The notes beneath the pieces were generated by a model that saw nothing but the letters and a program-made list of their open reading frames with translations, had not been told where the DNA came from and ran no database searches. From Alcaligenaceae bacterium (lineage in GTDB: Bacteria; Pseudomonadota; Gammaproteobacteria; Burkholderiales; Burkholderiaceae_B), in assembly GCA_013416395.1 (NCBI GenBank), contig JACCEP010000013.1, positions 1-64,000 of the forward strand: a DNA stretch of 64,000 nt, read 5' to 3'. Made by a program: the position numbers and the translations under genes. Position 1 is the first letter of the stretch. Each line of letters begins with the position of its first letter. Positions 15,442 to 41,476 of this stretch are shown in pieces.

Positions 15442-15452
15442 TGATTCAGCCC

Positions 15453-18784: not shown

Positions 18785-18850
18785 TACAGCGAAAGCAAGA
18801 ACCAGCCTGCGCGCTTCCAGCGGAACTGCGCAGGCCTGGCACAACCATGT

Positions 18851-22164: not shown

Positions 22165-22173
22165 GTCATATTC

Positions 22174-23741: not shown

Positions 23742-23761
23742 AATTTTCTCCTTTGGGCGTA

Positions 23762-24481: not shown

Positions 24482-24487
24482 GGCCGA

Positions 24488-26430: not shown

Positions 26431-26435
26431 TTATT

Positions 26436-26450
26436 TCCTATTATTTAGGA
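26436..26450. promoter_or_regulatory. Candidate IclR operator 1 (TCCTA-N5-TAGGA), next to iclR start
   Basis: TCCTA-TTATT-TAGGA, perfect 5-base arms, lies 6-20 bases upstream of the iclR start and would cover its ribosome site or promoter. An identical-arm copy lies 120 bases away before the divergent Bug gene. Two matching palindromes placed one at each promoter strongly suggest a shared regulator. Confidence 0.62.
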
Positions 26451-26555
26451 TCTCTGAAATGAATTCTAGGTGATTTAGTTATAAATTCCAATTCCATACA
26501 GCCTGTCAAACATGTTATATATATCAACATGAAAAATCAAATAATAGAATTCTAA

Positions 26556-26570
26556 TCCTATATATTAGGA
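26556..26570. promoter_or_regulatory. Candidate IclR operator 2 (TCCTA-N5-TAGGA), next to Bug gene start
   Basis: TCCTA-TATAT-TAGGA has the same arms as operator 1 and lies 18-32 bases upstream of the Bug receptor start. Bound there, a dimer would occlude the ribosome site or transcription start of the Bug/FAD transcript. GAATTCTA segments repeat beside both sites. Confidence 0.62.
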
Positions 26571-26587
26571 AATTCAAGGAGACTGGT

Positions 26588-27556
26588 ATGATGAAATCAC
26601 TTCCACGCGTATTGGTTGGCGTTGCGCTGGCTATAACAACCACCATCGCTGCAGCAGCGACTTGGCCAGATGGCCCGGTCAAAATGATTGTTCCTTATCC
26701 ACCTGGCGGCGCAACGGACTTCTCCGCACGAGCCTACGCCGACGAACTGGGCAAGATCCTAAAGCAACCCATCGTCGTGGAAAACAAGGCTGGAGCCGCC
26801 GGCGAAATCGGCGCCCAGTTCGTTGCAAACTCCAAACCCGATGGCTATACCGTTCTGCTGGGTGCTCTTGGCAGTCTCGCCATCAACTCACTATTGCCAT
26901 CCAAGCAACAGCAGTACAAATTTCCTGATGCTTTTGACGGCGTATCCATGGCTACGTCAACACCACTAGCTGTCGTTGTGCGCAGTGATCTTCCTGTGAA
27001 CAACATCCAAGAGCTCATTGCATTAGCCAAAAAGGAGAAAGGCCAACTAAGCTTTGGATCTGCGGGCTATGGATCTTCACAACACATGGTGGGAGAGAAA
27101 TTTCAGTTGGCTACGGGCACCAAGTTGCTGCATGTTCCCTACAAGGGCAGCGGCCCCGCCCTAACAGACCTTATCGGCGGCCAAGTGGATATGGTGTTTG
27201 ACACGATGCCCACCCTTATGGGGCATGTTAATAACCCAAAACTGCGCTTCATCGGCGTAACGACTAAAGAGCGAGCAGCCTCTTTGCCGGATGTACCGAC
27301 CTTGAAAGAGCAAGGCGTTAATGATTTCGACGTCAGCACGCGCTACGTGCTTCTTGCGCCTAGCGGCACACCCAAAGCCATTGTCGAACAACTTTCGCAG
27401 GCTATGAAGCGGGCAGCCGAGGTCCCTCGCATTCAGAAAGCCATGGTGAGCCAAGGCGCCGATGCCGTTCCCACATCGCCAGCGGACACAGATAAGGCAT
27501 TAAAGGATGAAGTCGAGATTTGGTCGAGCGTAGTAAAAAACGCTGACTTGAAATAA
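26588..27556 (+). CDS. Bug-family (TctC-like) periplasmic receptor
   Basis: A 322-residue secreted receptor with signal peptide ending near AAAA/TWPDG, then GPVKMIVPYPPGGATDFSAR and ENKAGAAGEIGAQF, the Bug-family hallmarks, and HVPYKGSGPALTDL. AAGGAGACTGGT precedes the start. It is divergent from the IclR/CoA operon and shares its candidate operators, so it probably captures the acid processed by that operon. No TctA/TctB partner is nearby. It is followed by a strong hairpin and the FAD protein gene. Confidence 0.92.
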   Translation: MMKSLPRVLVGVALAITTTIAAAATWPDGPVKMIVPYPPGGATDFSARAYADELGKILKQPIVVENKAGAAGEIGAQFVANSKPDGYTVLLGALGSLAINSLLPSKQQQYKFPDAFDGVSMATSTPLAVVVRSDLPVNNIQELIALAKKEKGQLSFGSAGYGSSQHMVGEKFQLATGTKLLHVPYKGSGPALTDLIGGQVDMVFDTMPTLMGHVNNPKLRFIGVTTKERAASLPDVPTLKEQGVNDFDVSTRYVLLAPSGTPKAIVEQLSQAMKRAAEVPRIQKAMVSQGADAVPTSPADTDKALKDEVEIWSSVVKNADLK

Positions 27557-27575
27557 TCCTCCTACCTATCGACCT

Positions 27576-27606
27576 ATAGGTGCGTCGTCCTGCGTGACGC
27601 ACCTAT
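27576..27606 (+). other. Perfect 11-base-pair hairpin between the Bug and FAD genes
   Basis: ATAGGTGCGTC (27576-27586) pairs with GACGCACCTAT (27596-27606) around a nine-base loop. No T-run follows, so it is not a classical terminator. It ends 13 bases before the FAD gene start. Such hairpins after receptor genes often protect the upstream message and lower expression downstream; that role is inferred. Confidence 0.6.
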
Positions 27607-27619
27607 CACGGAAATTCAA

Positions 27620-29170
27620 ATGCAACCACACGTCGATCTTGCGCTGGTGGGCGGCGGGTCCACCGCCACATCGTTTCTCGCCCAGCTCATTGAACTTCTG
27701 GATAATCGGGTACATTCTCAACCATGGCGCATACTCGTTTTTGAACCATCGAAACGATTGGGCCCTGGTGGGCCTTATGCGGAAGATCTGTCGACCAATC
27801 TACTGAATATCCCGGCGGGCAAGATGTCTGCCTATGCAAACGATCGCGGCCATTTTTTAAGATGGGTCAACAGCCAAAGCTCTACGCTCTTGGAGCAGCA
27901 CGGCGTAGTCAACACAGATCCCGCCGCATTCTTGCCTCGGCCATTGTTCGGACTTTATTTAACCGAAGTATGGACAACGCTGCTGCAACGCGCTGCACGT
28001 GTGCGCATCGAAATTAAACATATACCCACAGACGTTCGTGGGATAAGCCTCGCTCCAGAAAACAGTGACACCCTGCTTGACACGCCCATGGGCCAATATC
28101 GGGCAAGACGTACCGTGCTCTGCAACGGCAATCTCCCATCGACTACCTTCCCCGAGCTAACAAGTCGCCCTGGCTACTTCAACACCCCTTACCCCGCGAT
28201 TGATCTGGCCCGCAACATCCCGCACAACGCTAAAGTAGCAGTGCTTGGCACTAGCCTGAGTGCAATCGATGCCATCATTGCGCTTAAGGAGAACGGCCAT
28301 CAGACACCACTATTAGCCGTATCCCGCAACGGCCGCCTTCCATCCGTACGCACTATCAATAGCGGCTTATTTCCCGTTAATGCCCCAACCTTGCAAGAGA
28401 TCACGTCATTAGCCGACAACCAAGGTGGTTCGTTGACATTGCAAAGCGCATTTAGCTTTATTCAACAACGCCTAGTGGCTGCAGGTGGCGAACTCGATTG
28501 GGAGGATGTGCTTGGTCAGGGCGATCACCCTCATGATATTCTCAATAAAGAAATTACAGCTTCTACCAGCAAACCTCGGGTCTGGCAAAATATTGCTATT
28601 TCGCTGAATGAAATAATCGAACACATTTGGCGCTTACTGCCAGAAAGCGAAAAGCAGATATTCAATTCGAAGTGGCGATCATTGTGGATGGCTCGTCGCG
28701 CAACCTTTCCAATGAAAAACGCCCTGAAGATCAAGCACTATATTGATGCTAATCAGCTGCGTATTGCGGCCGGATTCGTCGACTGCCAGCCTTGCAAAGA
28801 TACTGGCGGTTACACCATCACGCTAAACGACGCTCAGGGTGAAGTACAGACACATCAAGTGCAGTATGTCGTCAACGCGACCAGCTTTTCAACTAACGTC
28901 AGCCAGACAGACGTACCTTTAATGCGCTCGTTGATACTGCAAGGCTTAGCAGTTCCCGATCCGTACGGGGGAGTACGCCTAGACTTTGATAGCGGTTGCT
29001 TGATAAACGCGGAAGATAAAATAGTGAGCAACATCAGTTTAATGGGCAGCCTCGCCGCCGGCACCTACTTCTGGACCACGTCGCTTGATGTCAATTCGCG
29101 CTTGGCATATCAGCAGGCCAAGCGGATCGCTGAAACTGTACCGCATCTTGCCTGCGTCGAATCGACCTAA
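27620..29170 (+). CDS. FAD/NAD(P)-binding protein (pfam13454 / YdhS-like)
   Basis: A 516-residue protein resembling the FAD/NAD(P)-binding family that includes E. coli YdhS. It opens with a nucleotide-binding fold DLALVGGGSTATSFLAQL and LNIPAGKMSAYA, and has a second dinucleotide segment (AVLGTSLSAIDAIIAL, about residues 200-220). It has no signal peptide. It probably shares a transcript with the Bug receptor, separated by a 63-base hairpin-bearing spacer, and may oxidise or reduce the pathway substrate. Ribosome site is weak. The biochemical role of this family is largely unknown. Confidence 0.8.
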   Translation: MQPHVDLALVGGGSTATSFLAQLIELLDNRVHSQPWRILVFEPSKRLGPGGPYAEDLSTNLLNIPAGKMSAYANDRGHFLRWVNSQSSTLLEQHGVVNTDPAAFLPRPLFGLYLTEVWTTLLQRAARVRIEIKHIPTDVRGISLAPENSDTLLDTPMGQYRARRTVLCNGNLPSTTFPELTSRPGYFNTPYPAIDLARNIPHNAKVAVLGTSLSAIDAIIALKENGHQTPLLAVSRNGRLPSVRTINSGLFPVNAPTLQEITSLADNQGGSLTLQSAFSFIQQRLVAAGGELDWEDVLGQGDHPHDILNKEITASTSKPRVWQNIAISLNEIIEHIWRLLPESEKQIFNSKWRSLWMARRATFPMKNALKIKHYIDANQLRIAAGFVDCQPCKDTGGYTITLNDAQGEVQTHQVQYVVNATSFSTNVSQTDVPLMRSLILQGLAVPDPYGGVRLDFDSGCLINAEDKIVSNISLMGSLAAGTYFWTTSLDVNSRLAYQQAKRIAETVPHLACVEST

Positions 29171-29391
29171 TTTGAGGCAGTCGCTGGCCTCCTAATTACC
29201 AATAATAATAATAATCGAAGCCATCAGCCGCTGTAATGCTTACTTTTAATTATGGAAAATCGATCTGACGCAGTTGAGCGAGCCAGCAACTGCCTATCGT
29301 ACAAACACCTAGCCCTTACCCACACGACACTTAGCTATACTTGTTAAATTAGGGATACAAGAACAAAAACAACACAGCGAAGCTATCACGA

Positions 29392-31398
29392 ATGACCTCG
29401 ATTTCAGTCCGCATTGCCACTGCCATACGCCTGGCATTACTTGGCTGCATGGGGTTTTTATTTGCTAATGTGGCAACCGCGCTGCCCCTACCCCCCTCCA
29501 TCCACGATTGCAATGGCAGCAAAGACCTGATCTTCGCCGCGCATCTGGACGACGACCTGCTGTTCATGAATCCCGATGTTTCCGCCAACATTGATGCGGG
29601 CGGATGCATGCTGACGGTTTACCTGACGGCCAGCGAACGCCGGGCAGGCGAAGACTACATGCTGGCGCGCGAACGCGGCGTGCGTGCCGCCTATGCCTAC
29701 CTGGCAAACAAGCCTGATGTATGGACGCAGGATACGGTTGCTGTAGGCGCTTACCACCTTACGCGCTTCACGCTGACCGGTGATCCAAAGCTGCAACTTA
29801 TACATATGCGCCTGAAAGACCCCTGGCTCGGTAAGGGATGGGGCAGCCTGACCCCATTGAGCCAGACCGAATCCATAGCAGGCAATATGGTCGACACGCT
29901 GGGCTCCTACCATGAAACGTATAGTCGGGCAGACCTCGTGGCCACCATCGCCAGCATCATCCAGGGCTACGGCCCCACCACGGTACGACACCTGGATGAC
30001 ACGATTAACATCCCTTATACCGAGCTGTGCTGGCGCTGTATTGGGCATGGCCACCCCGATCACATTGCAAGCGCCAGACTGGTTCGCGACGCCATTAAGC
30101 TCGCCCATGGCAACTACGCGGAAGTCGCCTATGTCGACTACCCCACGCAAGAACGCCAAATCAACCTGAATGAAAAGGAAATCAACAAGAAGACCGAAGC
30201 GTTTCGCCGCTATGCCTGGAAAGACTACCACGCCTGCCCAGATCCACAGAATTGCATTGCGCCCGCTGGCCCCGAGGCATCGTGGGTCGGCCGCTCTTAC
30301 TATGTATCGCGGCACAACATTACACCCGCACTCTTTACAGACCCAGAAGGCGGCATACTGATACTGGCCAAAGGCGAAGTTAACGACGCCGCCAATATCT
30401 GGAACAGCCGTAAGCAAACCTGGAGCGCACTAGGCGGTCGCACCCCCGATTCACTCGCTTCATTTGCATACCCGGACGCGGCGAACGGGTTTCTGGCACG
30501 TGACGCGCTGGGCATCATCTGGGCCAACAAGCAAAACCCTGATGAGAGCTGGCAAGGATGGCAAGCCATGGTGGGGGCACGATTTCCTCGCCTTCCTACC
30601 GTGACGTCAGAGGGGAAAACAGCAGCGGTTGGGCTTGCCAACGACGGGCTGCTCTATTGGGCGACCGCTTCCAGCACAGAAAACCGCTGGGCAGCCTGGC
30701 AGCCATTGCCGGTGCTGCATCAAGCCACCAGCGAGCTTGCCATAACAACCGACGCGGCCGGTCGACTGGTCATCTTTGCGACCGATGTCGAGGGCAGGCT
30801 TTTTACCGTGCAGCAGATTGCTGCCGAAGATGTAGAACACTGGTCATCGTGGAATGAGATCGCTGCACCGATCGCGCTAGGTGGGCTAGCGGCGCTACGT
30901 AATGCACACGGCCTGATCGAACTCTACCTGCGCGACCGGGCAAACAATCATTTGCTGCGGATCGCGCAGGCGGCCCAACCAGATAGCGCTGCAAACACGC
31001 CCTCCCCAGCCATTTGGAATACGGCCACCGATCTGGGCGTAAGTTTCGTAGGCAAGCCCGCCGTCGGCCTGAACGAGCACGGCGACGTCATCGTCGCCGT
31101 CGTCGATCACCCAGACGGTGCTCTCTGGCTTTACGAAAATGATCAGGCCAAAAAACTGTCGGTCAATGTGGTTTCTTCGCCCGCCTTGCGCGTAATAAAT
31201 GGCGTTTTGTATATCGTGGCCCGTAACGCAGGCCAACTACAGACATATCAGGTTCAGGAATATCGCCAAGGTGTCTGGGGTACTGCGTTAACCATCGCCG
31301 TACCGCCTGCAGGAGGCGGGAGTGCGTTTTCTGTGGGGGTAAGTGGGTCGCCGTTAGCTGTCGTGACAGATAACGGGACACAGGAAAAAGACAATTAG
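29392..31398 (+). CDS. Secreted PIG-L family deacetylase with C-terminal beta-propeller-like domain
   Basis: A 668-residue two-part protein. After a signal peptide (to about residue 31) comes a PIG-L/LmbE deacetylase domain with the zinc motif AAH51LDD and H221PDH224, which removes acetyl groups from N-acetylated sugars or similar. From about residue 330 the C-terminal half contains repeated W-x-x-W segments (TWSALGG, SWQGWQAM, RWAAWQPL, HWSSWNEI), as in PLL/DUF346-type propellers that bind glycans. It stands alone between the FAD gene and the Rpn repeat. The propeller could target the enzyme to a polysaccharide; the target is unknown. Confidence 0.85.
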   Translation: MTSISVRIATAIRLALLGCMGFLFANVATALPLPPSIHDCNGSKDLIFAAHLDDDLLFMNPDVSANIDAGGCMLTVYLTASERRAGEDYMLARERGVRAAYAYLANKPDVWTQDTVAVGAYHLTRFTLTGDPKLQLIHMRLKDPWLGKGWGSLTPLSQTESIAGNMVDTLGSYHETYSRADLVATIASIIQGYGPTTVRHLDDTINIPYTELCWRCIGHGHPDHIASARLVRDAIKLAHGNYAEVAYVDYPTQERQINLNEKEINKKTEAFRRYAWKDYHACPDPQNCIAPAGPEASWVGRSYYVSRHNITPALFTDPEGGILILAKGEVNDAANIWNSRKQTWSALGGRTPDSLASFAYPDAANGFLARDALGIIWANKQNPDESWQGWQAMVGARFPRLPTVTSEGKTAAVGLANDGLLYWATASSTENRWAAWQPLPVLHQATSELAITTDAAGRLVIFATDVEGRLFTVQQIAAEDVEHWSSWNEIAAPIALGGLAALRNAHGLIELYLRDRANNHLLRIAQAAQPDSAANTPSPAIWNTATDLGVSFVGKPAVGLNEHGDVIVAVVDHPDGALWLYENDQAKKLSVNVVSSPALRVINGVLYIVARNAGQLQTYQVQEYRQGVWGTALTIAVPPAGGGSAFSVGVSGSPLAVVTDNGTQEKDN

Positions 31399-31404
31399 TC
31401 AGAC

Positions 31405-31419
31405 GGGAGAGTATCTCCC
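31405..31419 (+). terminator. Short stem-loop after the PIG-L gene
   Basis: GGGAGA-GTA-TCTCCC forms a six-base-pair hairpin seven bases after the stop codon. There is no following T-run, so it is at best a weak terminator or an RNA-end stabiliser. Confidence 0.3.
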
Positions 31420-31633
31420 CTGCGTTCCGGCAATTTAGATACGTCAGCGCTCCGCCCCCCACCTCTAATTCTGTGCCCACACGAAAATCTGCTTGGATAC
31501 CTCAGCCTTCCCTTGCTTGTTCGTCTTTCGACAGCTGCTTCTTTGTTGGTAAGGTGTGAGCTACTTCTCTTTGATGCCGTCGAGGAATGCCGTTACACCT
31601 ATTTTGTCGGTCAACCTTTGTACAAAGAGCGCC

Positions 31634-32805
31634 AAATCACGTCAAACAAATACGCTTTCAATACTTTGGGCATCTAGCAGACTCAATGACCAGTTTTGCA
31701 ATTGATCGATGCTGGCTTGTGAGAGCAGCGTTTGGTAACGCGACGGCAAGGGGCCGAACCTGTGTTCAAGCTGGCGCGCCAGCAGCTGTGCCTGGCCTTG
31801 CAGGATTCCTTGTTGCTGTCCTTTCTGTAGCCCTTTCTGCTCACCCTCGTATCGCGCCTGATCCAGCATATCTTCGGCATCAACCAGCGCCTGTTCTCGG
31901 CGCTCTGCTGCCAGACGTAGCTCTTCATCTGAATACAGCGTTTGCAGATGGGTCAGGGCTTCTTGTACAGGTGGGTGGGTAATTGCAGTCATGGCAGCCT
32001 CATCCAGGTTGTGCAACAGACATGCGATCCAGGCCAGCAACGGCGTAGGCAGTTCACGCAGCCCTTCAGCTTTACGAAGTTCAATTATATGCACTTGCAG
32101 CATTTGCCCCAACTGGATTTGCGGATACTGGCTGTCGCGTAACGTGAAGTGCCAGTTGGCCTTGGCAGGATGCTCGGTAAACAGGTCATGGGCCAGCAAG
32201 CTGATTCCAATTGCCGGTTTAAGATCACGGTAATTTTGCCCGGCCTTCAATTGCCCGGCCAGGCTGCGCGCCACGCCATACACGTTACGCTGGGGCCAGT
32301 GCCGAAAGGGTTGCAACTGCATTTCTATGCCCAAGCGCTGGCCATGGGCATCCTCAGCGAGAATGTCCAGCACGATGTGCTTGCCCTCCAGGTCTGCCGG
32401 CAAAATATGCGGATTCAGAATGTGCCGTACCGTTATGGCTGCGGCGGGGTAGCGTACAGCATTGATCAGGTCAGACAGCAGGTGTGGGTGGCGGCTGAAC
32501 AAGGCTTTGAAAACCACATCGTTGCAAAATGAAAGGCGATGCGTGCGAGTTTGTTGTGCTTGCCTGAACGCATCGAAGCGAAACGCTTGCACGCCGCTAG
32601 TCAGCTGATCAAAGCCTGACCTTGCAGGTGCTCCAACCGCACATTGCGTCGCGTCTACGGACGGCCCTGTCGATGAAGGCGGGTTAACGGATGACATGCC
32701 TGTTTGCCCTTAAACAGTTTGCAAAACGGCAATCTAAAGCAAACTAAAAGGGATAAAAATTAGGCAAACTAGTCCATACGGACAAGAACATCATCAGTGT
32801 TGGAA
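31634..32805 (-). repeat. Long direct repeat, copy 1, carrying an Rpn-family gene
   Basis: About 1172 bases that recur nearly identically at 38219-39402 in the same orientation. Identity begins at AAATCACG eight bases beyond the gene stop, and ends at GTGTTGGAA, 108 bases upstream of the start codon. The only visible length difference is a 12-base unit inside the gene. The shared upstream part includes GTCC-ATAC-GGAC. I see no terminal inverted repeats or target duplications. Confidence 0.9.
31642..32697 (-). CDS. Rpn-family recombination-promoting nuclease (PDDEXK_2), copy 1
   Basis: A 351-residue PD-(D/E)xK-type protein, the family formerly called transposase_31. The nuclease region runs from about FCNDVVFKALFSRHPHLL to VLDILAEDAHGQRLGIEMQLQ, the D...ExQ signature. 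The C-terminal third is helical, with charged QKGLQKGQQQG repeats. An internal ATG at 31992 (MTAITHPP), preceded by GAGG at five bases, could start a 116-residue C-terminal protein. Known Rpn genes cut DNA and some act in phage defence with such a small inhibitor. Near-identical to the gene at 38227. Confidence 0.88.
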   Translation of the reverse strand: MSSVNPPSSTGPSVDATQCAVGAPARSGFDQLTSGVQAFRFDAFRQAQQTRTHRLSFCNDVVFKALFSRHPHLLSDLINAVRYPAAAITVRHILNPHILPADLEGKHIVLDILAEDAHGQRLGIEMQLQPFRHWPQRNVYGVARSLAGQLKAGQNYRDLKPAIGISLLAHDLFTEHPAKANWHFTLRDSQYPQIQLGQMLQVHIIELRKAEGLRELPTPLLAWIACLLHNLDEAAMTAITHPPVQEALTHLQTLYSDEELRLAAERREQALVDAEDMLDQARYEGEQKGLQKGQQQGILQGQAQLLARQLEHRFGPLPSRYQTLLSQASIDQLQNWSLSLLDAQSIESVFV

Positions 32806-32842
32806 GGGGCCTTATTCGCCAACCACACCACTTCTCGCCCTA

Positions 32843-34000
32843 TTAGTCCTCCTCCATGGAGCCCAACCGCTCGCGCAATTCTTTCAGAACATCGTTATTG
32901 TGCTCACCCAGAACCGGTGGCGGTATCACTTCGGTGCTGCGCTCACCGTCAAACGAAACGGGAGAGCGTACAGTGCGGAACTCCCCCATGGTTTTGTGGT
33001 GGCCTGAAACAAGCAGCCCCAGATGCTTGGCTTGTGGATCTTCCAAGGCTTCACTGGCATCGTACATGGGAGCGTGCGGCACATCTTCGGCCTCCAGTCG
33101 GCGACACCATTCCGGTCGTGTCCGTTGTGCAAAAATTGAGCCAAGGATATCAATCAAGGCTTCTTGGTTCTCGATACGCCCGTTACGATCCGAAAACCGA
33201 GGGTCCTTAAACAGCTCGAATTGCTCCATCGCATTGGCAAGGCCTTGCCAGAACTTTTCAGGCGAAGACATATGCAGCGCGAGCCACTTACCATCGGCGC
33301 ATTTCATGACGTACGACTGTGAGACGCTGGGCCGACTGTATGGCCCCATGACCTCACCTGCAGAATAAAAATGAGTAAACGCGTCCAGGTTAAAGTGCGT
33401 CATGGCTTCGAGCATGGACACCTCAACCTTGCGGCCAACACCTGTCTGATGGCGCTCGTGTAGCGCTCCGAGCACACCATACGCAGCATAAAAACCGGTA
33501 ATGGAATCGGCCAGCGCGGGGCCAACAACACGTGGGTTTTCTGGGTTGATAAGAAGGCCTAAAAAGCCACTGGCAGCCTGAGCTACTGAATCATAGGCAG
33601 GTCGACTGGCGGCCGGGCCCGTAGGCCCAAATCCGCTAATCGAACAATAAATCAAGCGAGGGTTTAGCTTGCGCAGACGCTCCTCGCCGACATTCAATCG
33701 CTCAGCGGCCCCCGGTCGAAAGTTCTGAATATAAACATCAGCAGTGCTAATTAACTCGTCAAAGATCGCGAGGTCCTCAGCATTCTTGGTGTTCAACGTG
33801 ACGCTGCGCTTGTTGCGATTGTAGGTTTGGAAGTGTGGGCTGTATAAGCCCCCTTTGAACGCGCGAAACGGGTCTCCCGTTTCAGGTTGTTCTATTTTGA
33901 TGACATCGGCGCCCATGTCGCCCAGCAACATTCCCGCTGCCGGGCCGGTAATAAAGGTTCCTTGTTCCAATACGCGAACGCCATTCAGAACTTTAATCAT
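32843..34000 (-). CDS. CaiB/BaiF family (class III) CoA-transferase, cassette copy
   Basis: A 385-residue class III CoA-transferase. The start MIKVLNGVRVLEQ has GGAG nine bases upstream; the longer frame to 34114 overlaps the lyase-like gene. LGDMGADVIKIEQPETGDPF is the family N-terminus and the Asp in LADSITGFYAAY is the likely catalytic residue. It is the last gene of the Bug, Fe-ADH, citryl-CoA-lyase-like, CaiB set, after a 28-base gap. A CoA donor such as succinyl-CoA would activate the acid that the lyase-like enzyme then splits; this order is inferred. Confidence 0.9.
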   Translation of the reverse strand: MIKVLNGVRVLEQGTFITGPAAGMLLGDMGADVIKIEQPETGDPFRAFKGGLYSPHFQTYNRNKRSVTLNTKNAEDLAIFDELISTADVYIQNFRPGAAERLNVGEERLRKLNPRLIYCSISGFGPTGPAASRPAYDSVAQAASGFLGLLINPENPRVVGPALADSITGFYAAYGVLGALHERHQTGVGRKVEVSMLEAMTHFNLDAFTHFYSAGEVMGPYSRPSVSQSYVMKCADGKWLALHMSSPEKFWQGLANAMEQFELFKDPRFSDRNGRIENQEALIDILGSIFAQRTRPEWCRRLEAEDVPHAPMYDASEALEDPQAKHLGLLVSGHHKTMGEFRTVRSPVSFDGERSTEVIPPPVLGEHNNDVLKELRERLGSMEED

Positions 34001-34028
34001 GATAAAACTCCGGTGCAAATCGTAGATG

Positions 34029-34838
34029 CTAGGTGTGGCTCGCGGAAAAGCCTTCTGGCGTGTCTCCGTCGTAAACATAATCGCGCGTGGCTTGATATGA
34101 CAGTGCAAAGCCAATGGGTTTCTGTAACTCTTCAGTCAGATGCCCGATAAGACCGGCAGTCCGGGCAAGAATAGGCACACCCCTCAAGGCAGTTATTGGA
34201 AAGCCCACACCGAGTAACGCAGCAGGAATAGCCGCCGAAACATTCAACATCAGGTTTTTGCCAATGATCTCCGGGATCACGTTCTCGATCGCGTCAGCTA
34301 TTTGTATGTAAGTCATATCAGCACCGGCCGCTTCAGCCACCCTAAATAGCGCCGACACACGAGGATCGCGCTCTTTATGCAAGGGATGACCATAGCCAGG
34401 AATGGCGCGCCGAGCATTACGATATTCTCCGATCACCTGCTTGGCTGCCTCGCTGTAATAATTGTCGCCGTCAGCACGCACCCTCACCTCTTCAAGAAGT
34501 CTGCCAGCCGTTTCGGAGGCGCCAAGAATCACGGAACCACAACCTAAAATACCGGCCGCTACGGCGCCCTGCAGTGCGTCAGGGGCAGCCGCCAGCGTCA
34601 TCCGACTGGCCTGCACGCTCGGAACGAGGCCATGTTCCGCGATGGCAACCAATGTTGCATTCAACACGGTTGTGGCGGCTGGCGTGGGCTCTTGACCAGT
34701 AACCAATAGAAAAAAATAATCTGTGAAGGATATTTTCCCAATAAGCTCCTGGGCCAGATCCTTTCCTCGCACTACGATAGTTTCTGAGTTCGAGGTGCAA
34801 ATGGCCGAGTGCGGAATAGTTTCTTTACCTATTTTCAT
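34029..34838 (-). CDS. Citryl-CoA lyase-like / small citrate synthase family protein
   Basis: A 269-residue citrate-synthase-fold protein, far shorter than citrate synthase (about 430) and similar to citryl-CoA lyases and to the C-terminal part of ATP-citrate lyase. Start MKIGKETIPH has AGGA upstream, preferred to a 14-residue longer frame. Catalytic-type histidines are visible: H69 in AEHG and H151 in GYGHPLHKERDPR, with R160. It probably cleaves (or forms) a 3-hydroxyacyl-CoA into acetyl-CoA and a 2-oxo acid. It lies between the Fe-ADH and the CaiB-type gene. Confidence 0.87.
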   Translation of the reverse strand: MKIGKETIPHSAICTSNSETIVVRGKDLAQELIGKISFTDYFFLLVTGQEPTPAATTVLNATLVAIAEHGLVPSVQASRMTLAAAPDALQGAVAAGILGCGSVILGASETAGRLLEEVRVRADGDNYYSEAAKQVIGEYRNARRAIPGYGHPLHKERDPRVSALFRVAEAAGADMTYIQIADAIENVIPEIIGKNLMLNVSAAIPAALLGVGFPITALRGVPILARTAGLIGHLTEELQKPIGFALSYQATRDYVYDGDTPEGFSASHT

Positions 34839-34915
34839 GTCGTTCCTGAAAAGCGTGTGCGCGGCGTTGTGCTGGGGCACTTTTCCAGCAAGGTGTGTGT
34901 TCGAAGCAAGCTAAC

Positions 34916-35983
34916 TTATTCAGGCCGCAGCCCTTCGAACGCGTATTGCAAAAGCGTGCGGATGTGGTCGCGTTCGACAGGACAAGGATTCCAGTACGGT
35001 TGCGCGACCGCAATGTCTGCGGCCTGATCCAGATCGGCTGCACGCATGCCTATTGCGCGTAATGCCATAGGGGCACCCAGTTCTTGTGCGAGATCGTATA
35101 GGGCTGAAGCAGCAGACTGATTTGATCGCTGCAACGCGCGGGAGATGCGTTGCATTGCACTGGGTGCGAACGAGGCGTTATACGCCATGGCATACGGAAG
35201 AACGATGGAATGCGTCTGAGCATGCGGCAGATTAAAGCTGCCCCCCAAGGTATGGCACAGCTTATGATGCAAAGCCATACCAGCACTACCAAGTACAGTG
35301 CCACAAAGCCACGCACCGTAAAGGCATTGCTCCCGAGCGTTTACATCATTCTTCTGGTGCTGAAGTTGACGCAGGCCGCTTGCCATGGCTCGTATGCCCT
35401 CTTCGGCCAATAATGTAATCATCGGATTGCTGTCTTGGGCGTACAGGCCCTCTGCAGCATGAGCGATGGCATTCATGCCGCTGGTTACCGAAATATCATA
35501 AGGCAGCCTCAAGGTCAGTTGAGGGTCGTAAATAACCGTCTTTGGCAATACACGGGCATCCTTACCAGTCTTTTTTGTGCCGCCCTCGGTCACACCATAC
35601 ACGGACGTCATCTCCGACCCGGAATAGGTCGTGGGCACAGCCAGTATCGGGAGCCCGGTACCCAAGGCCAGCGCCTTCGCCAGGCCTATCGTGGAACCAC
35701 CCCCAATTGCAATCAGGCAATCGGCATTTGACCTGGTTAATGCAACCCGCGCCTCTTGAACAACTGCCAAGGGTACGTGCATGGTTGCTTGGTCGTAGAT
35801 GGCCGCAGCGCTTTTCCCAAGCGCTTCCGAAGCCTGCTCGGCCAGCCCACGCTGGCGTGCCGTGCAAAGCACGAGCGCTTTCTGCGCCCCTAGCAGGCCG
35901 ATCTCAGCCTTGAGCATATGCCACGCGTCTGCACCAAAAACCACGCGCGTGGGCTGTGCGGTATAGACGAATGGTTCGGGCAT
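34916..35983 (-). CDS. Iron-containing alcohol dehydrogenase, maleylacetate-reductase-like
   Basis: A 355-residue group III dehydrogenase. The NAD(P) region has GGGSTIGLAKALAL, and PTTYSGSEMTSVYGVTEGGTKKTGKD matches maleylacetate reductases. Metal-site-type histidines lie in GMNAIAHAAEG, HHKLCHTLGG and LPHAQTH. The start MPEPFVYTAQ is one base after the Bug stop with no Shine-Dalgarno site, so translation must be coupled. A maleylacetate reductase normally ends chlorocatechol or resorcinol breakdown, but no ring-cleavage dioxygenase is nearby, so it may act on a related 2-oxo or hydroxy acid. Confidence 0.88.
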   Translation of the reverse strand: MPEPFVYTAQPTRVVFGADAWHMLKAEIGLLGAQKALVLCTARQRGLAEQASEALGKSAAAIYDQATMHVPLAVVQEARVALTRSNADCLIAIGGGSTIGLAKALALGTGLPILAVPTTYSGSEMTSVYGVTEGGTKKTGKDARVLPKTVIYDPQLTLRLPYDISVTSGMNAIAHAAEGLYAQDSNPMITLLAEEGIRAMASGLRQLQHQKNDVNAREQCLYGAWLCGTVLGSAGMALHHKLCHTLGGSFNLPHAQTHSIVLPYAMAYNASFAPSAMQRISRALQRSNQSAASALYDLAQELGAPMALRAIGMRAADLDQAADIAVAQPYWNPCPVERDHIRTLLQYAFEGLRPE

Positions 35984-35984
35984 A

Positions 35985-36989
35985 CTAGTTAACTTTTGCA
36001 CCTGAGTTCCTGACAAGTTCAGCCCATTTTTTGGTCTCGTCGGCCTCGAACTTAGCCAAATCTTTGGTAGATTCGCCACCTGGCTCTACCCCTTGTTGCT
36101 TCAGTCTCTCAATCAGGTCCGGATCGGCCAACACATCAGCAGCAGCCTCTTTCAGTTTGGCCATGACGGGCTCAGGCACCCCGGCAGGGGCATACATCAT
36201 GAACCAGGCGACTAAGTCGAAATCACTGTTGGTTTGCTCTGCGATGCTGGGCACATCGGGTGCTGCAATACTGCGTCGACTGCTAGATACACCTATGGCG
36301 CGCAACGCGCCGCTCTTTACATGGGGTAACACGGCAGCGGGGTGATAGAACATGAACTGAACCTCTCCTGACATCACATCCTGCATAGCCATGGCCCCCT
36401 CTTTATACGGGACATGCAGCATCACTACGCCGAGCCGATCTTTAAGTAATTCACCAGCCAGATGACCCGATGTGCCGCTTCCAGCAGATGAGAACATGAT
36501 GCCTTTCGGCGTGTTCGCAGCCTCGGCAAGCTCTTTTACAGAATGGTAAGGGGAATCGCCACTCACCACCAAAAATGTAGGCGTTTGCCCAACGAAAGCG
36601 ATGGGCTTGAAATCTGTTTTTGGTTCATAACCTCGCTTGGAATACAGTTCTGTATTAATGGCATGGGTTCCAACCGTGCCCATCAGAATGGTGTAACCAT
36701 CGGGAGCACTGCGTGCAACCTGCGCTGTACCGATTGTGCCACCAGCGCCAGCCTTGTTGCTCACCACAATGGGCTGACCCAGTTTCTTGGACATTTTGTC
36801 GGCGACGAGTCGCGAAATGGTGTCAGTCGTGGTGCCAGGACCAAACGGTACGACCAAGTTCACTGCCTTCGTCGGAAAGTCCGCAGACAGGGCTGGCGTC
36901 GCCATAAACGCTAAAGGCGCCGAAACAAAAGCGGCCATAAGACGGTACGGTGGATATTTATTAAACGGATTTTTTATAGATAGACTCAT
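35985..36989 (-). CDS. Bug-family (TctC-like) periplasmic receptor
   Basis: A 334-residue receptor, with a signal peptide ending near PALSA/DFPTK, then AVNLVVPFGPGTT and SNKAGAGGTIGTAQV, and HVPYKEGAMAM. The start MSLSIKNP follows AAGGAGGAG; an 11-residue longer frame is not needed. It is the first gene of a four-gene set and its stop is one base from the Fe-ADH start. It is divergent from a LysR gene at 37143. No TctA/TctB partner is nearby. Confidence 0.92.
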   Translation of the reverse strand: MSLSIKNPFNKYPPYRLMAAFVSAPLAFMATPALSADFPTKAVNLVVPFGPGTTTDTISRLVADKMSKKLGQPIVVSNKAGAGGTIGTAQVARSAPDGYTILMGTVGTHAINTELYSKRGYEPKTDFKPIAFVGQTPTFLVVSGDSPYHSVKELAEAANTPKGIMFSSAGSGTSGHLAGELLKDRLGVVMLHVPYKEGAMAMQDVMSGEVQFMFYHPAAVLPHVKSGALRAIGVSSSRRSIAAPDVPSIAEQTNSDFDLVAWFMMYAPAGVPEPVMAKLKEAAADVLADPDLIERLKQQGVEPGGESTKDLAKFEADETKKWAELVRNSGAKVN

Positions 36990-37085
36990 GATTACTCCTC
37001 CTTGTAGTAGGCCTGACTTCATTTATTCATTGTTCTAAAGCTTGAAGCTGGTATCAGTCTAATTGCCAGTTATGAAATACAGAAA

Positions 37086-37100
37086 TGATTGTTTTAATCA
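37086..37100. promoter_or_regulatory. Candidate LysR operator before the cassette LysR gene
   Basis: TGATT-GTTTT-AATCA, perfect 5-base arms, lies 43 bases upstream of the LysR start and about 97 bases upstream of the Bug start, in their divergent promoter region. LysR proteins usually bind T-N11-A dyads in just this place. Confidence 0.45.
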
Positions 37101-37142
37101 GCTATGATCGATGGCATCGATAGCAATCTGAACATTCTCGTC

Positions 37143-38066
37143 ATGGAACTGAGGCACTTACGATATTTCATTGCATTGGCGGGGTCACTTAACTTCACCC
37201 GTGCGGCCGAGCGCGTGCACGTAACGCAGTCGACACTGTCACATCAAATACGCCAACTGGAAGAGGAGATCGGCCAACGTTTGTTTGACCGCAACGGCAA
37301 GCGTGTCGTGCTGACCGAGGCTGGCGAATCGTTTCTGGCTTATGCCAACCGTGCGCTTGAAGTCATCGATGAGGGTCTGGGCGAACTAAAACAGGCCGTC
37401 GCGCCGATTACAGGTACCGTGCACATAGGCACTACATCCACCTTTAATCAGAGTTTTCTTCCCGATTGTGTTGCACTTTTTCTTAGAGAGAACACCACTG
37501 TCAAGATTGTCATTGACGAACTATCGGCCGACGCGATCACTGACGGGCTCATGGCGGAAGAGCTAGATATCGGCATTGGGTACCGACCCGAACTGCAAGA
37601 GACAATAAGGTTCGAACCACTATTCAACGAGGAACTCGCCTTGGTCGTAGCGAACAAGCATATATTGGCAACGCGCAAACGCTTGCGAATAGCCGAGCTT
37701 CATCGCGAGTCACTGGTTCTGTTGCCAAAGAAATTTTCTACCAGACGTCTGCTTGATGAATGCTTTAACGCAGCAGGTGCCCAGCCAAATATCATCGCTG
37801 AAATGAATACCATTCCGGCGATGCTGGGTTTGGTAGTACGAGAACATGTAGGTACTATTGTTGCGCCCAGCGCAATCGCACACCACAGTATTCCTGTACA
37901 AGTGATTCCGCTCGAAGGCCCCACCCCCATCCGCACCCATGGCCTAATGTTCAAGGATGCCCACGAGCAAACGCGAGCCAGCATGGCCTTCAGTGCCCTT
38001 ATCCGTAATCACACAAAGCCTGGAATGTACGGTGCAAGACCAGCACAAGGCGCAGTGGTTTTTTAA
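37143..38066 (+). CDS. LysR-family transcriptional regulator (CynR-like)
   Basis: A 307-residue LysR regulator with start MELRHLRYF, the N-terminus usual for CynR/CbbR-like members; a 13-residue longer frame is not supported. The helix-turn-helix is SLNFTRAAERVHVTQSTLSHQIRQLEEEIG. It is divergent from the Bug, Fe-ADH, citryl-CoA-lyase-like, CaiB operon and probably activates it in response to the imported acid. The Shine-Dalgarno site is weak. It sits just inside the second Rpn repeat. Confidence 0.9.
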   Translation: MELRHLRYFIALAGSLNFTRAAERVHVTQSTLSHQIRQLEEEIGQRLFDRNGKRVVLTEAGESFLAYANRALEVIDEGLGELKQAVAPITGTVHIGTTSTFNQSFLPDCVALFLRENTTVKIVIDELSADAITDGLMAEELDIGIGYRPELQETIRFEPLFNEELALVVANKHILATRKRLRIAELHRESLVLLPKKFSTRRLLDECFNAAGAQPNIIAEMNTIPAMLGLVVREHVGTIVAPSAIAHHSIPVQVIPLEGPTPIRTHGLMFKDAHEQTRASMAFSALIRNHTKPGMYGARPAQGAVVF

Positions 38067-38218
38067 CGATCATCGTCTACGAATATGGGTTTCTTCAGAG
38101 CTTCGCCCACTCATCCAGGGTTATAGCTTTTTGGCAGCGTTTGAGGTACTGCTTTTTGGCTGAGATTGAGGACACCCGCTGGTTCTATCTGACGATCCAC
38201 CTCTGTACACATAGAGTA

Positions 38219-39402
38219 AAATCACGTCAGACAAATACGCTTTCAATGCATTGGGCATCCAATAAGTTTAGTGACCAGTTTTGCAATTGATCGGCGCTGG
38301 CCTGTGAGAGCAGCGTTTGGTAACGCGACGGCAAGGGGCCGAACCTGTGTTCAAGCTGGCGCGCCAGCAGCTGTGCCTGGCCTTGCAGGATTCCTTGTTG
38401 CTGTCCTTTCTGTAGCCCTTTCTGTAGGCCCTTCTGCTCACCCTCGTATCGCGCCTGATCCAGCATATCTTCGGCATCAACCAGCGCCTGTTCTCGGCGC
38501 TCTGCTGCCAGTCGCAGTTCTTCGTCTGAATACAGCGTTTGCAGATGGGTCAGGGCTTCTTGTACAGGTGGGTGGGTAATTGCAGTCATGGCAGCCTCAT
38601 CCAGGTTGTGCAACAGACATGCGATCCAGGCCAGCAACGGCGCAGGCAGTTCACGCAGCCCTTCAGCTTTACGAAGTTCAATTATATGCACTTGCAGCAT
38701 TTGCCCCAACTGGATTTGCGGATACTGGCTGTCGCGTAACGTGAAGTGCCAGTTGGCCTTGGCAGGATGCTCGGTAAACAGGTCATGCGCCAGCAGGCTG
38801 ATGCCGATAACAGGCTTGAGATCACGGTAATTTTGACCGGCCTTCAATTGCCCGGCCAGGCTGCGCGCCACGCCATACACGTTACGCTGGGGCCAGTGCC
38901 GAAAGGGTTGCAACTGCATTTCTATGCCCAAGCGCTGGCCATGGGCATCCTCAGCGAGGATGTCCAACACAATGTGCTTGCCCTCCAGATCTGCCGGCAA
39001 AATATGCGGGTTCAGGATGTGCCGTACCGTTATGGCTGGGGCGGGGTAGCGTACGGCATTGATCAGATCAGACAGCAGGTGCGGATAGCGGCTGAACAAG
39101 GCTTTGAAGACTACATCGTTGCACAATGAAAGGCGATGCGTGCGAGTTTGTTGTGCTTGCCTGAACGCATCGAAGCGAAACGCTTGCACGCCGCTAGTCA
39201 GCTGATCAAAGCCTGACCTTGCAGGTGCTCCAACCGCACATTGCGTCGCGTCTACGGACGGCCCTGTCGATGAAGGCGGGTTAACGGATGACATGCCTGT
39301 TTGCCCTTAAACAGTTTGCAAAACGGCAATCTAAAGCAAACTAAAAGGCATAAAAATTAGGCAAACTAGTCCATACGGACAAGAACATCATCAGTGTTGG
39401 AA
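38219..39402 (-). repeat. Long direct repeat, copy 2, carrying an Rpn-family gene
   Basis: About 1184 bases matching 31634-32805 in the same orientation. The 12-base length difference is one extra KGLQ-type unit. Identity stops abruptly on both sides (after TTGGAA at 39402, before AAATCACG at 38219), so the flanks differ completely. With copy 1 it brackets the 5.4-kb catabolic cassette. Confidence 0.9.
38227..39294 (-). CDS. Rpn-family recombination-promoting nuclease (PDDEXK_2), copy 2
   Basis: A 355-residue protein almost identical to that at 31642-32697. Differences include Cys/Leu near residue 55, His/Tyr in the SRxPHLL segment, Ala/Pro in RYPxAITV, Ala/Val in LKPxIGIS, one extra KGLQ unit, and a slightly different C-terminus (NLLDAQCIESVFV). 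The D...ExQ nuclease signature is intact. An internal ATG at 38589 with the same GAGG could start a 120-residue C-terminal protein. Both copies look functional. Confidence 0.88.
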   Translation of the reverse strand: MSSVNPPSSTGPSVDATQCAVGAPARSGFDQLTSGVQAFRFDAFRQAQQTRTHRLSLCNDVVFKALFSRYPHLLSDLINAVRYPAPAITVRHILNPHILPADLEGKHIVLDILAEDAHGQRLGIEMQLQPFRHWPQRNVYGVARSLAGQLKAGQNYRDLKPVIGISLLAHDLFTEHPAKANWHFTLRDSQYPQIQLGQMLQVHIIELRKAEGLRELPAPLLAWIACLLHNLDEAAMTAITHPPVQEALTHLQTLYSDEELRLAAERREQALVDAEDMLDQARYEGEQKGLQKGLQKGQQQGILQGQAQLLARQLEHRFGPLPSRYQTLLSQASADQLQNWSLNLLDAQCIESVFV

Positions 39403-39648
39403 TGTACGTTTGCAAAATACTGGTTGGTGCAGGGCCTGGTCGTGAACCTCAGTTGTCTTCATCTTGAGTTGGCTACGATAAAAAAGCAGGGTGATCACCC
39501 ACTCTTTGAGCTAGTCGCTCCTCACTTTGTTCAGCCATCCCAGCCATTGTCGATAGAGCCATATTTTGGGCGCGGGCAATGGACGGAGATTTTCATGGTC
39601 CCGCGTCCGATGCGCCGCGCTTAAAGCCTCGGTGTGCTTCTGCCTTGA

Positions 39649-40698
39649 TCAAGCCATCAACGAGGCATTATCGATCACGAAGCGGTACTTCACGTCGCCT
39701 TTGAGCATGCGCTCATAGGCGACGTTGATTTCATCGGCGCGAATCATCTCGATGTCTGCCACAATGCCGTGCTCTGCGCAAAAATCCAGCATCTCCTGCG
39801 TCTCGGGAATGCCGCCGATCATCGAGCCGGCCAGACTGCGGCGCTTCATAATAAGGTTGAACACCTGCGGCGAGGGATGCGGTGTGGCGGGAGCCCCCAC
39901 CAGTGCCATCGTTCCGTCACGTTTAAGCAGCGCGAAGAAAATGTCCAGATCATGTGGCGCGGCAACAGTATTCAGGATGAAGTCGAGGCTTTTCGCATGC
40001 GTGTCCATCTCCTCCGCATGACGCGACACGACCACATCGTCCGCGCCTAAAGCTTTGGCCGCCTCACGTTTGGACTCGGACGTGGTAAACGCCACAACGT
40101 AGGCACCCATAGCATGCGCCAGCTTGATGCCCATGTGCCCCAGACCGCCGATACCCACCACACCGACCTTTTTGCCGGGACCAACATGCCAATGACGTAG
40201 CGGAGAGTACGTGGTAATGCCTGCACACAACAGAGGCGCGACGGCGGCCAACTGCGCCTCAGGATGGGTGATGCGCAGTACATAGCGTTCGTGCACGACG
40301 ATTTTCTGCGAGTAACCACCCAGCGTGTGGCCGGGTGCATCCTGTGTAGGACCATTGTAGGTACCCACCATGTTGTCGCAGTAGTTCTCCAGCCCTTCGT
40401 CGCACTCCTCACAGTGCTGGCAGCTATCAACAATGCATCCGACGCCAACCAGATCGCCGAGCTGAAAATCCGTCACATGCGCGCCTACCGCCGACACGCG
40501 GCCCACAATCTCGTGCCCCGGAACGCAGGGGTAGAGCGTACCTGCCCACTCGGAACGGACCTGATGGAGGTCCGAGTGACACACGCCGCAATAAGCAATG
40601 TCGATCTGTACGTCGTGCGCACTCGGCGCGCGCCGGGTGATACTCAGCAGTTCGAGAGCGCGGTCGCCTGCAAGAGCGCCATAAGCGTTGATAGTCAT
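39649..40698 (-). CDS. Zinc-dependent NAD(P)-linked alcohol dehydrogenase (cinnamyl-alcohol-dehydrogenase/YahK type)
   Basis: A 349-residue medium-chain dehydrogenase that interconverts aldehydes and alcohols. The catalytic zinc site is CGVCHSDLH and PGHEIVG, the structural zinc site is DSCQHCEECDEGLENYC, and the cofactor fold is VGVVGIGGLGHMGIKLAHAMG. The start MTINAYGALA follows AGGAATCGAAATC; a longer frame to 40794 is not supported. The neighbouring LysR gene is degraded, so control by it is lost. A TTTCTAGAAA palindrome lies at 40731-40740, just upstream. Confidence 0.93.
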   Translation of the reverse strand: MTINAYGALAGDRALELLSITRRAPSAHDVQIDIAYCGVCHSDLHQVRSEWAGTLYPCVPGHEIVGRVSAVGAHVTDFQLGDLVGVGCIVDSCQHCEECDEGLENYCDNMVGTYNGPTQDAPGHTLGGYSQKIVVHERYVLRITHPEAQLAAVAPLLCAGITTYSPLRHWHVGPGKKVGVVGIGGLGHMGIKLAHAMGAYVVAFTTSESKREAAKALGADDVVVSRHAEEMDTHAKSLDFILNTVAAPHDLDIFFALLKRDGTMALVGAPATPHPSPQVFNLIMKRRSLAGSMIGGIPETQEMLDFCAEHGIVADIEMIRADEINVAYERMLKGDVKYRFVIDNASLMA

Positions 40699-40876
40699 GA
40701 TTTCGATTCCTGTGTCAATGGGAAAGCTAATTTCTAGAAAATGCGACGCGCACATCTTGCTGACCAAGCGTATGGGCCAGTTCGGCCAGATCATTCACAC
40801 GCCCAATGCGTGTTTATGAGTACGTCGAGTGCTGTCGGCCTTCGCAAACGCTGAGCACGAATAGACCGAGTAACTC

Positions 40877-41180
40877 GCTCAGCATACGCCAGGCCTGCAG
40901 TCCTCGAGTTGTACAACGGTCGATCCCAAGGTCGATGTAACGCTGTTTACCGGCACCGATCCCGAGGCGGCGAACGTTTAATACAGGCCATCGGCCACCG
41001 CTTTTACGAAATTGGACGAGTTAACGGACATGCGGGATAAGCCTGCGGGCACGGTACGCATCACCTGCGCTGAATTTATTCTGCGCACAACACTACTACC
41101 CAAGCTCACCCTTTTATCAAATGAATATCCTGACATAAATGTCGAATTCGACGTGAACTATGGATTTCGGGATAACCAGG
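40877..41180 (+). pseudogene. Remnant of a LysR-family regulator gene
   Basis: Fragments of a LysR gene divergent from the alcohol dehydrogenase. GERLIQAIGHRFYEI is readable at 40969-41013, then the frame shifts and DELTDMRDKPAGTVRIT, FILRTTLLPKLT and EFDVNYGFRD follow to about 41176; about 10-11 bases seem missing at the shift. The wing of the helix-turn-helix is only traceable (CAGCATACGCCAG at about 40880), and everything after GFRD is lost. Confidence 0.75.
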
Positions 41181-41325
41181 GGATTCTTTGTGGATTCTTT
41201 TTCGTCAATACAATTTGACGAGTCTGCGATTAGCGCCCCAAGCTACGTAGAAGACTTTGCTTCGAGCAAGCCACTTGTAACATCAGCAGTTAGCAGTAGG
41301 ATCAGAATGTGGCCAATGATGAAAG

Positions 41326-41363
41326 ACACCATATACTGGCCGTATCCGGCCACTTTATGGTGT
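41326..41363. other. Strong bipartite hairpin downstream of tRNA-Val
   Basis: ACACCATA (41326-41333) pairs with TATGGTGT (41356-41363), an internal loop follows, and TGGCCG (41337-41342) pairs with CGGCCA (41347-41352) around TATC. The tRNA gene on the minus strand ends 39 bases before it. No T-run follows on either strand, so it may be a rho-type or processing signal rather than a classical terminator. Confidence 0.5.
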
Positions 41364-41401
41364 AAGGCGCACAAAATAATGAGGCAGAGCCTGAATTTTA
41401 T

Positions 41402-41476
41402 TGGTGGGCGGTACAAGGTTCGAACTTGTGACCCCTGCCGTGTGAAGGCAGTGCTCTACCACTGAGCTAACCGCCC
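41402..41476 (-). tRNA. tRNA-Val (anticodon CAC)
   Basis: The minus strand reads GGGCGGTTAGCTCAGTGG onward, with a D-arm (GCTC..GAGC), anticodon arm CTGCC-TTCACAC-GGCAG with anticodon CAC at 34-36, T-loop GTTCGAAC, a perfect seven-pair acceptor stem (GGGCGGT/ACCGCCC) and an encoded CCA at 41404-41402. CAC reads the valine codon GUG. It lies beside dnaQ, as tRNA genes do next to dnaQ in other proteobacteria. Confidence 0.95.

Follow-up and report, generated by a model that had tools for sequence, protein, structure and literature searches.

An Rpn-family gene pair, probably of the RpnL/RpnS toxin-antitoxin type, encloses a conserved catabolic operon downstream of tRNA-Val in an Alcaligenaceae bacterium

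The closest described counterparts of the genes considered here are the rpn genes of E. coli, each of which encodes a toxic full-length nuclease (RpnL) and, from an internal start, a small C-terminal protein (RpnS) that blocks it; in the account of Zhong et al. (2023; PMC10327210) these nucleases serve toxin-antitoxin defence, and a role as transposases is very unlikely. According to the same account, RpnS expression was also seen from a C. difficile gene, the number of four-residue repeats in RpnS is hypervariable and sets RpnL-RpnS specificity in E. coli, and in a test with RpnC the addition of one repeat to either RpnS or RpnL broke protection, which was restored when both carried it. It also describes rpn arrays that arise by direct duplication, so that rpn pairs as such are not new. 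Here we consider two neighbouring rpn genes in a 64,000-nucleotide stretch of DNA (the window: positions 1 to 64,000 of the forward strand of contig JACCEP010000013.1, GenBank assembly GCA_013416395.1). The two are probably RpnL/RpnS-type toxin-antitoxin nuclease genes arranged in tandem, with a conserved catabolic operon sitting between them, and the locus lies in a variable region downstream of tRNA-Val; we read it as an rpn array that recombines and has gained or lost cargo. The other explanations weighed below are not mutually exclusive, and the likelihoods attached to them need not add up to one.

Both genes lie on the minus strand, copy 1 at 31642-32697 (351 residues) and copy 2 at 38227-39294 (355 residues), and their products are identical at 343 of 351 aligned residues. 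Each combines a PDDEXK_2 nuclease domain (PF12784; E = 2.6e-29 and 103 bits for copy 1, 6.1e-29 and 101.8 bits for copy 2, cut-off 27.4) with a DUF4351 domain (PF14261; 3.9e-9 and 6.6e-9), and each matches TIGR01784, the Rpn family recombination-promoting nuclease/putative transposase model (81 and 82.2 bits, cut-off 52.1); the word 'Transposase' in the title of PF12784 is likewise a family annotation. Residues D60, D111, E125 and Q127 are invariant across five aligned proteins and correspond, at the level of the motif, to D11, D63, E82 and Q84 of RpnA. Changes of these RpnA residues (to alanine, or Q84K) abolished three tested phenotypes in the results reported by Kingston et al. (2017; PMC5350276). 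Judged by sequence, then, both copies are full-length Rpn genes with an intact catalytic motif of the D, D, E-x-Q type, in which they resemble E. coli RpnA-E, although the latter belong to PF04754 and their effect on recombination, as given by Kingston et al., was measured on overproduction. The source genome holds two more rpn genes on other contigs, diverged from the pair at 78–80% DNA identity. All 156 plasmid records with a match fell below 60% identity and none reached 80% query coverage, and a check for carriage by phages found no exact match to the rpn upstream pattern among viral contigs.

Both copies fit the published RpnL/RpnS design, in which an internal start would make a small antitoxin from the tail of the nuclease. 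The predicted RpnS of copy 1 (31642-31992, minus strand) comprises 116 residues and that of copy 2 (38227-38589, minus strand) 120 residues; each would start at an internal ATG, codon 236, behind a Shine-Dalgarno-like GAGG (31998-32001 and 38595-38598, respectively), and it is from these features that we infer their expression. When 52 Rpn proteins of at least 180 residues, out of 56 matches and with the window copies included, were aligned, a methionine stood in the codon-236 column in 36, and 35 of these 36 have GAGG or GGAG 4–10 nt upstream; the remaining 16 belong to a more distant subgroup or are fragments. Among the other in-frame internal ATGs of the 33 genes counted first, which served as a control, a site of this kind precedes only 2 of 139. 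The glutamate codon that forms the site is GAG in all 24 genes with a single glutamate there, as against 39% GAG elsewhere in the genes, and the nine genes with two glutamates at the site always use GAG-GAA, yielding GGAGGAA. Independent support for the internal start comes from Allopusillimonas ginsengisoli, the closest relative compared (strain SBSA; contig taken as RAPG01000013.1): immediately after the stop of its full gene there is a second copy of the rpn 3' end, which begins 15 nt before the equivalent ATG and contains a stand-alone DUF4351 open reading frame (ORF). The arrangement recalls E. coli rpnE-ypaA, in which, as Zhong et al. describe it, a stand-alone RpnS gene lies downstream of a full one.

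The number of repeats varies as well. Copy 2 differs from copy 1 by a 12-bp in-frame insertion that amounts to one GLQK unit, so that the repeat helix has one unit in the 351-residue protein and two in the 355-residue protein, and the window pair thus shows the variable four-residue repeats described for RpnS. By analogy with E. coli, each RpnS would silence its own RpnL, and the difference of one repeat may leave the two RpnL/RpnS pairs mutually non-protecting; this is a natural pair one repeat unit apart on a 98% identical background, and a change of that kind broke cross-protection in E. coli RpnC. In A. ginsengisoli the full gene has one GLQK unit and the stand-alone RpnS two, which means that both species hold one RpnS of each repeat class.

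Several observations weigh against this interpretation. The predicted RpnS proteins, at 116 and 120 residues, are longer than E. coli RpnA-S (5.4 kDa), and their GLQK repeats begin about 45 residues after Met236, not 8–20 as Zhong et al. report, although that distance is perhaps a feature of the RpnS set treated there and not necessarily a defining one. When the stand-alone RpnS of A. ginsengisoli was compared by sequence with the PDB, no match was returned, so that kinship to the solved RpnA-S (7TH0) is unsupported by sequence. The AlphaFold model is poor (mean pLDDT 45) and confident only at about residues 301–355 of copy 2, where it shows the last part of a long helix together with short helices. 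In PADLOC copy 1 had no match, and copy 2 matched only weakly, to a 'putative invertase'. Finally, the Rpn sequences counted above are related, such that p-values overstate their independence and are descriptive only.

The likeness to E. coli RpnL/RpnS as described by Zhong et al. extends to a nuclease joined to a small variable C-terminal domain, an internal start, variable four-residue repeats and arrays formed by duplication. The window genes differ in belonging to the PDDEXK_2 (PF12784) branch in Burkholderiales, in having an RpnS of about 116–120 residues, in enclosing a catabolic operon and in being known here from sequence. The comparison extends the idea of a gene-within-gene toxin-antitoxin system from E. 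coli to Burkholderiales PDDEXK_2 Rpn proteins and offers a conserved, directly testable candidate internal start; our searches of the open-licence PMC literature found no report of this start in Burkholderiales PDDEXK_2 genes. Possible stand-alone or decayed RpnS genes were also noticed in three other genomes. The first (L163 2716-3030, in G063) holds a stop and another (G137:C4:1169701-1170138) directly follows the 5' part of an rpn gene, and both may be broken rpn genes; the third (G010:C5:83590-83997) lies in a genome with no PF12784 match.

The two genes are embedded in the sole repeat pair detected when the window was compared with itself by BLAST (31605-32805 and 38190-39402, same strand, 1145 of 1213 columns identical, E = 0.0). 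A preliminary description of the stretch had reported a 1172-base block that recurs in the same orientation, and it does, with 1172 bp in the left copy (31634-32805, plus strand) and 1184 bp in the right (38219-39402, plus strand), the blocks being 96% identical and followed by weaker homology to 31605 and 38190 (28 of 37 positions over 31641-31605, downstream of the gene). Each repeat copy is one complete rpn gene plus its upstream region. The 108 upstream bases assigned to the repeat match at 107 positions and the 8 bases directly downstream are the same in both copies; the 1164 ungapped positions of 31642-32805 include 45 substitutions, and homology ends abruptly at 32805 and 39402. Unbroken identical tracts reach 224, 144, 122 and 118 bases, and a run of 197 bases is broken by the 12-bp insertion; a longest run of 224 bases has a permutation p of 0.0026 under a null that ignores codon constraint. 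The two rpn copies therefore form a direct repeat that is long, in one orientation and rich in long identical tracts.

Composite transposons and catabolic cassettes between direct repeats likewise carry cargo between two long direct repeats. Unlike a composite transposon, the window yielded neither an insertion sequence nor a clear pair of terminal inverted repeats. The preliminary description had seen no transposase and no inverted repeats. In a domain scan that covered 35 of the 53 ORFs of the window, the Rpn family was the sole transposase-annotated domain. Short, mostly imperfect inverted repeats do exist, but no clear terminal pair was seen among the 25 longest of 52 inverted repeat pairs. 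Within that set, those that touch the copies are 20–27 nt long at 74–83% identity, as with 38267-38286 and 39316-39335 within copy 2 (75%), and the rpn gene also contains a perfect 14-nt palindrome. Nor does the locus resemble a tRNA island of the integrase type, as the 35 scanned ORFs contain no integrase domain, the tRNA-Val region matches the window only at itself and no duplicated tRNA 3' end was found.

The preliminary description had further suggested that the Rpn nucleases themselves could drive gain and loss of the cassette through RecA-independent recombination. In favour of this, overexpressed E. coli RpnA-D raise RecA-independent recombination (PMC5350276), and Zhong et al. propose a possible role of RpnL in starting the recombination behind rpn duplication (PMC10327210). 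However, the effect was obtained on overproduction, and deletion of the four active rpn paralogues left recombinants at the wild-type, basal level in the results given by Kingston et al. (2017; PMC5350276), a result that disfavours Rpn-driven recombination; the account of Zhong et al. argues against transposases and gives no evidence of autonomous transposition (PMC10327210). Together with the lack of a clear terminal pair among the inverted repeats considered, this makes the suggestion highly improbable for the locus described here.

If the nucleases are set aside, ordinary homologous recombination between the copies could remove or add the intervening genes, and either duplication or the single-crossover uptake of DNA with a second rpn would have placed the operon between them. 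The history of the copies can be followed in part by comparison with A. ginsengisoli. Mismatches between the copies are clustered along the alignment. In the N-terminal linker the two copies are identical (167 of 167) and each matches A. ginsengisoli at 121 of 167 positions, whereas at the 3' end of the gene copy 1 matches copy 2 at only 37 of 48 positions and A. ginsengisoli at 45 of 47, with copy 2 matching the latter at 36 of 47. The difference counts, 0:46 in the linker and 11:2 at the 3' end, give a Fisher p of 2.8e-10 for segments that were picked after the alignment had been viewed. An origin as uniform old paralogues was rejected, because the balance of similarity, to the other copy or to A. 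ginsengisoli, reverses from one part of the gene to another. Because of this mosaic pattern, we conclude that recombination among rpn copies took place in the past and that the two copies, as far as sequence can tell, have exchanged DNA with each other or with other rpn alleles.

An active loop-out island, in which RecA-dependent recombination between the two copies would cut out or multiply the 5.4-kb cassette at a noticeable rate in living cells, is in keeping with the long identical tracts, with the mosaic copies and with a relative that has no cassette. Of 44 informative sites, the first eight favour copy 2, which agrees with A. ginsengisoli at seven of them, and the remaining 36 favour copy 1, which agrees at 28, a pattern expected of a single exchange between the repeats that links a two-copy with a one-copy state; the changepoint test for such an exchange gives a permutation p of 0.011, which becomes 0.14 when the clustering of sites is kept and is hence not relied on. 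The related-genome comparison at the rpn locus had been proposed beforehand as a check, and the cassette is indeed absent there from A. ginsengisoli, though the rpn gene comes with an extra RpnS. The order in that species is the left flank (window 29293-31588), the RpnS-only copy, the full rpn gene, about 30 bp, tRNA-Val and dnaQ, and apart from three matches of 44–92 bases the cassette is missing from the whole genome. The locus also has no counterpart of the next 2 kb of the window (39403-41401), and this deficit and the additional stand-alone RpnS rule it out as a clean loop-out scar. The loop-out proposal thus keeps its repeats, its mosaic copies and its cassette-free relative, but not the scar, and an island active in living cells seems to us possible though doubtful. 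What the relative without the operon at the same spot does indicate is that the spot changes over time.

Another route would be a Campbell-type arrival, in which incoming foreign DNA, bearing the operon together with an rpn allele of its own, crossed over with a resident rpn gene and left two hybrids. This would account for the close match to A. ginsengisoli not only of the 3' end of copy 1 but also of the sequence downstream of it (35 of 37), and for the poorer match of copy 2, whose 3' end is somewhat nearer to the other two rpn genes of the genome (39 and 40 of 48) than is that of copy 1 (34 and 37 of 48). The 5' ends are harder to reconcile with it: the 108-bp upstream parts of the two copies are near-identical and equally far from A. 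ginsengisoli (90 of 108 each), so that later conversion must be added, and copy 2 adjoins 2 kb of other DNA, not the resident right flank. We regard such an arrival as a tentative explanation, and the comparison of operon and core-like genes described below indicates that recent transfer is not required.

Between the copies lies, as had been proposed, one operon and its regulator, all identified by domain searches. On the minus strand are genes for a CaiB-type CoA transferase (CoA_transf_3; 32843-34114; PF02515, 2.7e-105), a citryl-CoA-lyase-like protein or short citrate synthase (34029-34880; NF004868, 333 bits, cut-off 193), an iron-containing alcohol dehydrogenase (Fe-ADH; 34916-36079; PF25137, 6.2e-46, and PF00465, 3.1e-30) and a TctC/Bug solute-binding protein (35985-37022; PF03401, 1.1e-72), and a LysR-type regulator gene is divergent from them on the plus strand (37104-38066; PF03466 and PF00126). 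The lyase-like marker was found in 33 of 200 genomes of the family, including that of the window. Operon loci of 19 kb each were fetched from 14 of these 33, and the full set of five genes, ordered and oriented relative to one another as in the window, is present in six of the 14, the other eight holding only some of them. None of the 14 had an Rpn match near the operon within the 19 kb taken. PF12784 is carried by five of the 33 marker-bearing genomes (G000, G024, G063, G070 and G175), and outside the genome of the window the marker and PF12784 sit on different contigs or 222 kb apart. Since the operon is kept in other genera without an adjacent Rpn gene, the nucleases did not build it, and it is ordinary catabolic cargo, not part of the Rpn system. 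Our searches of the open-licence PMC literature found no report of catabolic cargo between rpn pairs, and nothing that joins the Rpn family with direct repeats and a genomic island.

The operon could instead be ancestral, lost by A. ginsengisoli and other members of the genus, and flanked by rpn genes by chance. The same gene order is found in several genera of the family, and conservation of the operon does not exceed that of a core-like gene. For such a gene, encoding a pump, identity to G021 and G105 is 82–83% (the g40 genomes lack a close match to it); the lyase reaches 84 and 80%, and Fe-ADH 65%. As the best-conserved operon genes are about as similar as the core-like gene, similarity decides neither for transfer nor for loss. 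However, the lyase marker (E ≤ 1e-60) is missing from three of four relatives in the genus and in the fourth is 49% identical with two stops, and in the six full-order loci the 19 kb taken contain no match to the window flanking genes that were tested. On balance, ancestry with chance flanking is an unlikely explanation.

Pairs of this kind are not confined to the window. PF12784 occurs in 19 of 200 genomes of the family, 12 of 399 of the order and 29 of 369 of the class, the window genome being counted in each, for a total of 58 genomes. At least ten close same-strand Rpn pairs, picked by eye from tables, were found in nine of these 58; the order and class surveys scored no more than seven candidates per genome, which makes the pair count a lower bound. 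The repeat region is unequal in length in nine of the ten pairs and equal in one (L158), and five pairs (the window, L114, L158, L159 and L160) enclose 1–5.5 kb. Between the genes of L114, in genome G127, are RelE-like and helix-turn-helix (HTH) genes, both slightly below Pfam cut-offs, and its rpn genes are four repeat units apart at 98.8% DNA identity; the pair was not seen in four other genomes of that genus. L158 and L159 are both in G832 and enclose, respectively, a glycosyltransferase gene and Uma2 and NERD-like genes, and the stretch within L160 has no Pfam family. In such pairs rpn genes provide repeat homology around unrelated cargo, which bears on the reshaping of genomes by rpn arrays. 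L159 itself (G832:C1:1875000-1886000) is a dense array of rpn copies and fragments among NERD-like and Uma2 nuclease genes, with repeated blocks, and is partly masked.

An unequal pair around cargo might be thought of as an addiction bracket. If each RpnS guards only its own RpnL, deletion of the genes between the two would remove one antitoxin and leave its toxin unopposed, and the cargo would be kept. Near-identical pairs with cargo and unequal repeats are also found in G127, in one of the two G832 pairs and in G888, and A. ginsengisoli, which is free of the cargo, keeps both repeat classes, as if an orphan antitoxin had made the loss survivable. The proposal is weakened by the equal-repeat pair L158, by the position of Zhong et al., who favour release of RpnS over its degradation (PMC10327210), and by a control in which, at 85% identity or more, repeats differ in six of seven pairs of neighbouring Rpn genes and in 11 of 15 pairs of non-neighbours (the L159 pair was excluded because masked stretches occur in one of its genes). 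There is thus no clear excess that would make neighbours special in repeat divergence, and the 11 of 15 among unlinked genes indicate that repeat differences reflect general hypervariability. We consider an addiction bracket improbable.

The upstream part of each repeat copy contains a promoter-like element (32698-32805 for copy 1 and 39295-39402 for copy 2, both minus strand) that consists of an imperfect palindrome, TTGTCC-N4-GGACTA, then AGTTTGCCTAAT, then TTTTTA-N17-TAGATT, with -35 and -10 boxes assigned by eye. The own-genus 12-mer AGTTTGCCYAAT, which was chosen after the upstream sequences of other genera had been viewed, is found, with up to three mismatches, upstream of 16 of 30 rpn genes from other genera as against 229 of 1780 control stretches. 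The upstream element may serve as an operator, for which RpnS is a possible reader. The palindrome TTGTCC-N4-GGACAA was rejected as an operator of rpn genes in general, being present at two mismatches or fewer in only nine of 36 genes (36 of 2284 controls, which include the sites themselves); a looser expression of the palindrome matched 18 of 36 genes and 30 of 2284 controls, but was mis-spaced and missed the window's own sites. The promoter-like element is shared by rpn genes across genera (L114, L117-L119, L133-L135, L138, L143 and others), in several cases behind an imperfect GTCC-N4-GGAC palindrome.

On the other side of copy 2, the 39403-41401 stretch contains a zinc alcohol dehydrogenase gene (39649-40794, minus strand; PF08240 and PF00107) and leads to tRNA-Val(cac) (41402-41476, minus strand). 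The segment 40795-41401 translates in broken frames that, judged by eye, resemble a LysR substrate-binding domain and is perhaps a decayed regulator gene. The tRNA gene and copy 2 are 2.1 kb apart; in A. ginsengisoli, homology to rpn starts about 30 bp 3' of the tRNA gene and the rpn gene lies about 0.1 kb from it, and in L122 and L140 a tRNA gene is about 1.4 kb away. Adjacency to a tRNA gene is not a rule for rpn, with a tRNA in only four of 46 loci scanned, and two of four relatives in the genus have rpn, one gene each, with none in the other two. The spacing of tRNA-Val and dnaQ is about 150 bp in the window and 3.8–8.2 kb in three relatives (G001:C22, G003:C22 and G004:C10), so that the junction looks like an insertion hot spot; G003 also has a 52-bp partial tRNA-Val match 17 kb away. 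Beyond the left flank, a further 15 kb of the window (13943-29292) has no match at the A. ginsengisoli locus. Its genes are mostly catabolic or transport genes (ABC transporter, amidase, CoA transferases and Bug), and its GC content is 51%, as against 53–57% in the other stretches measured.

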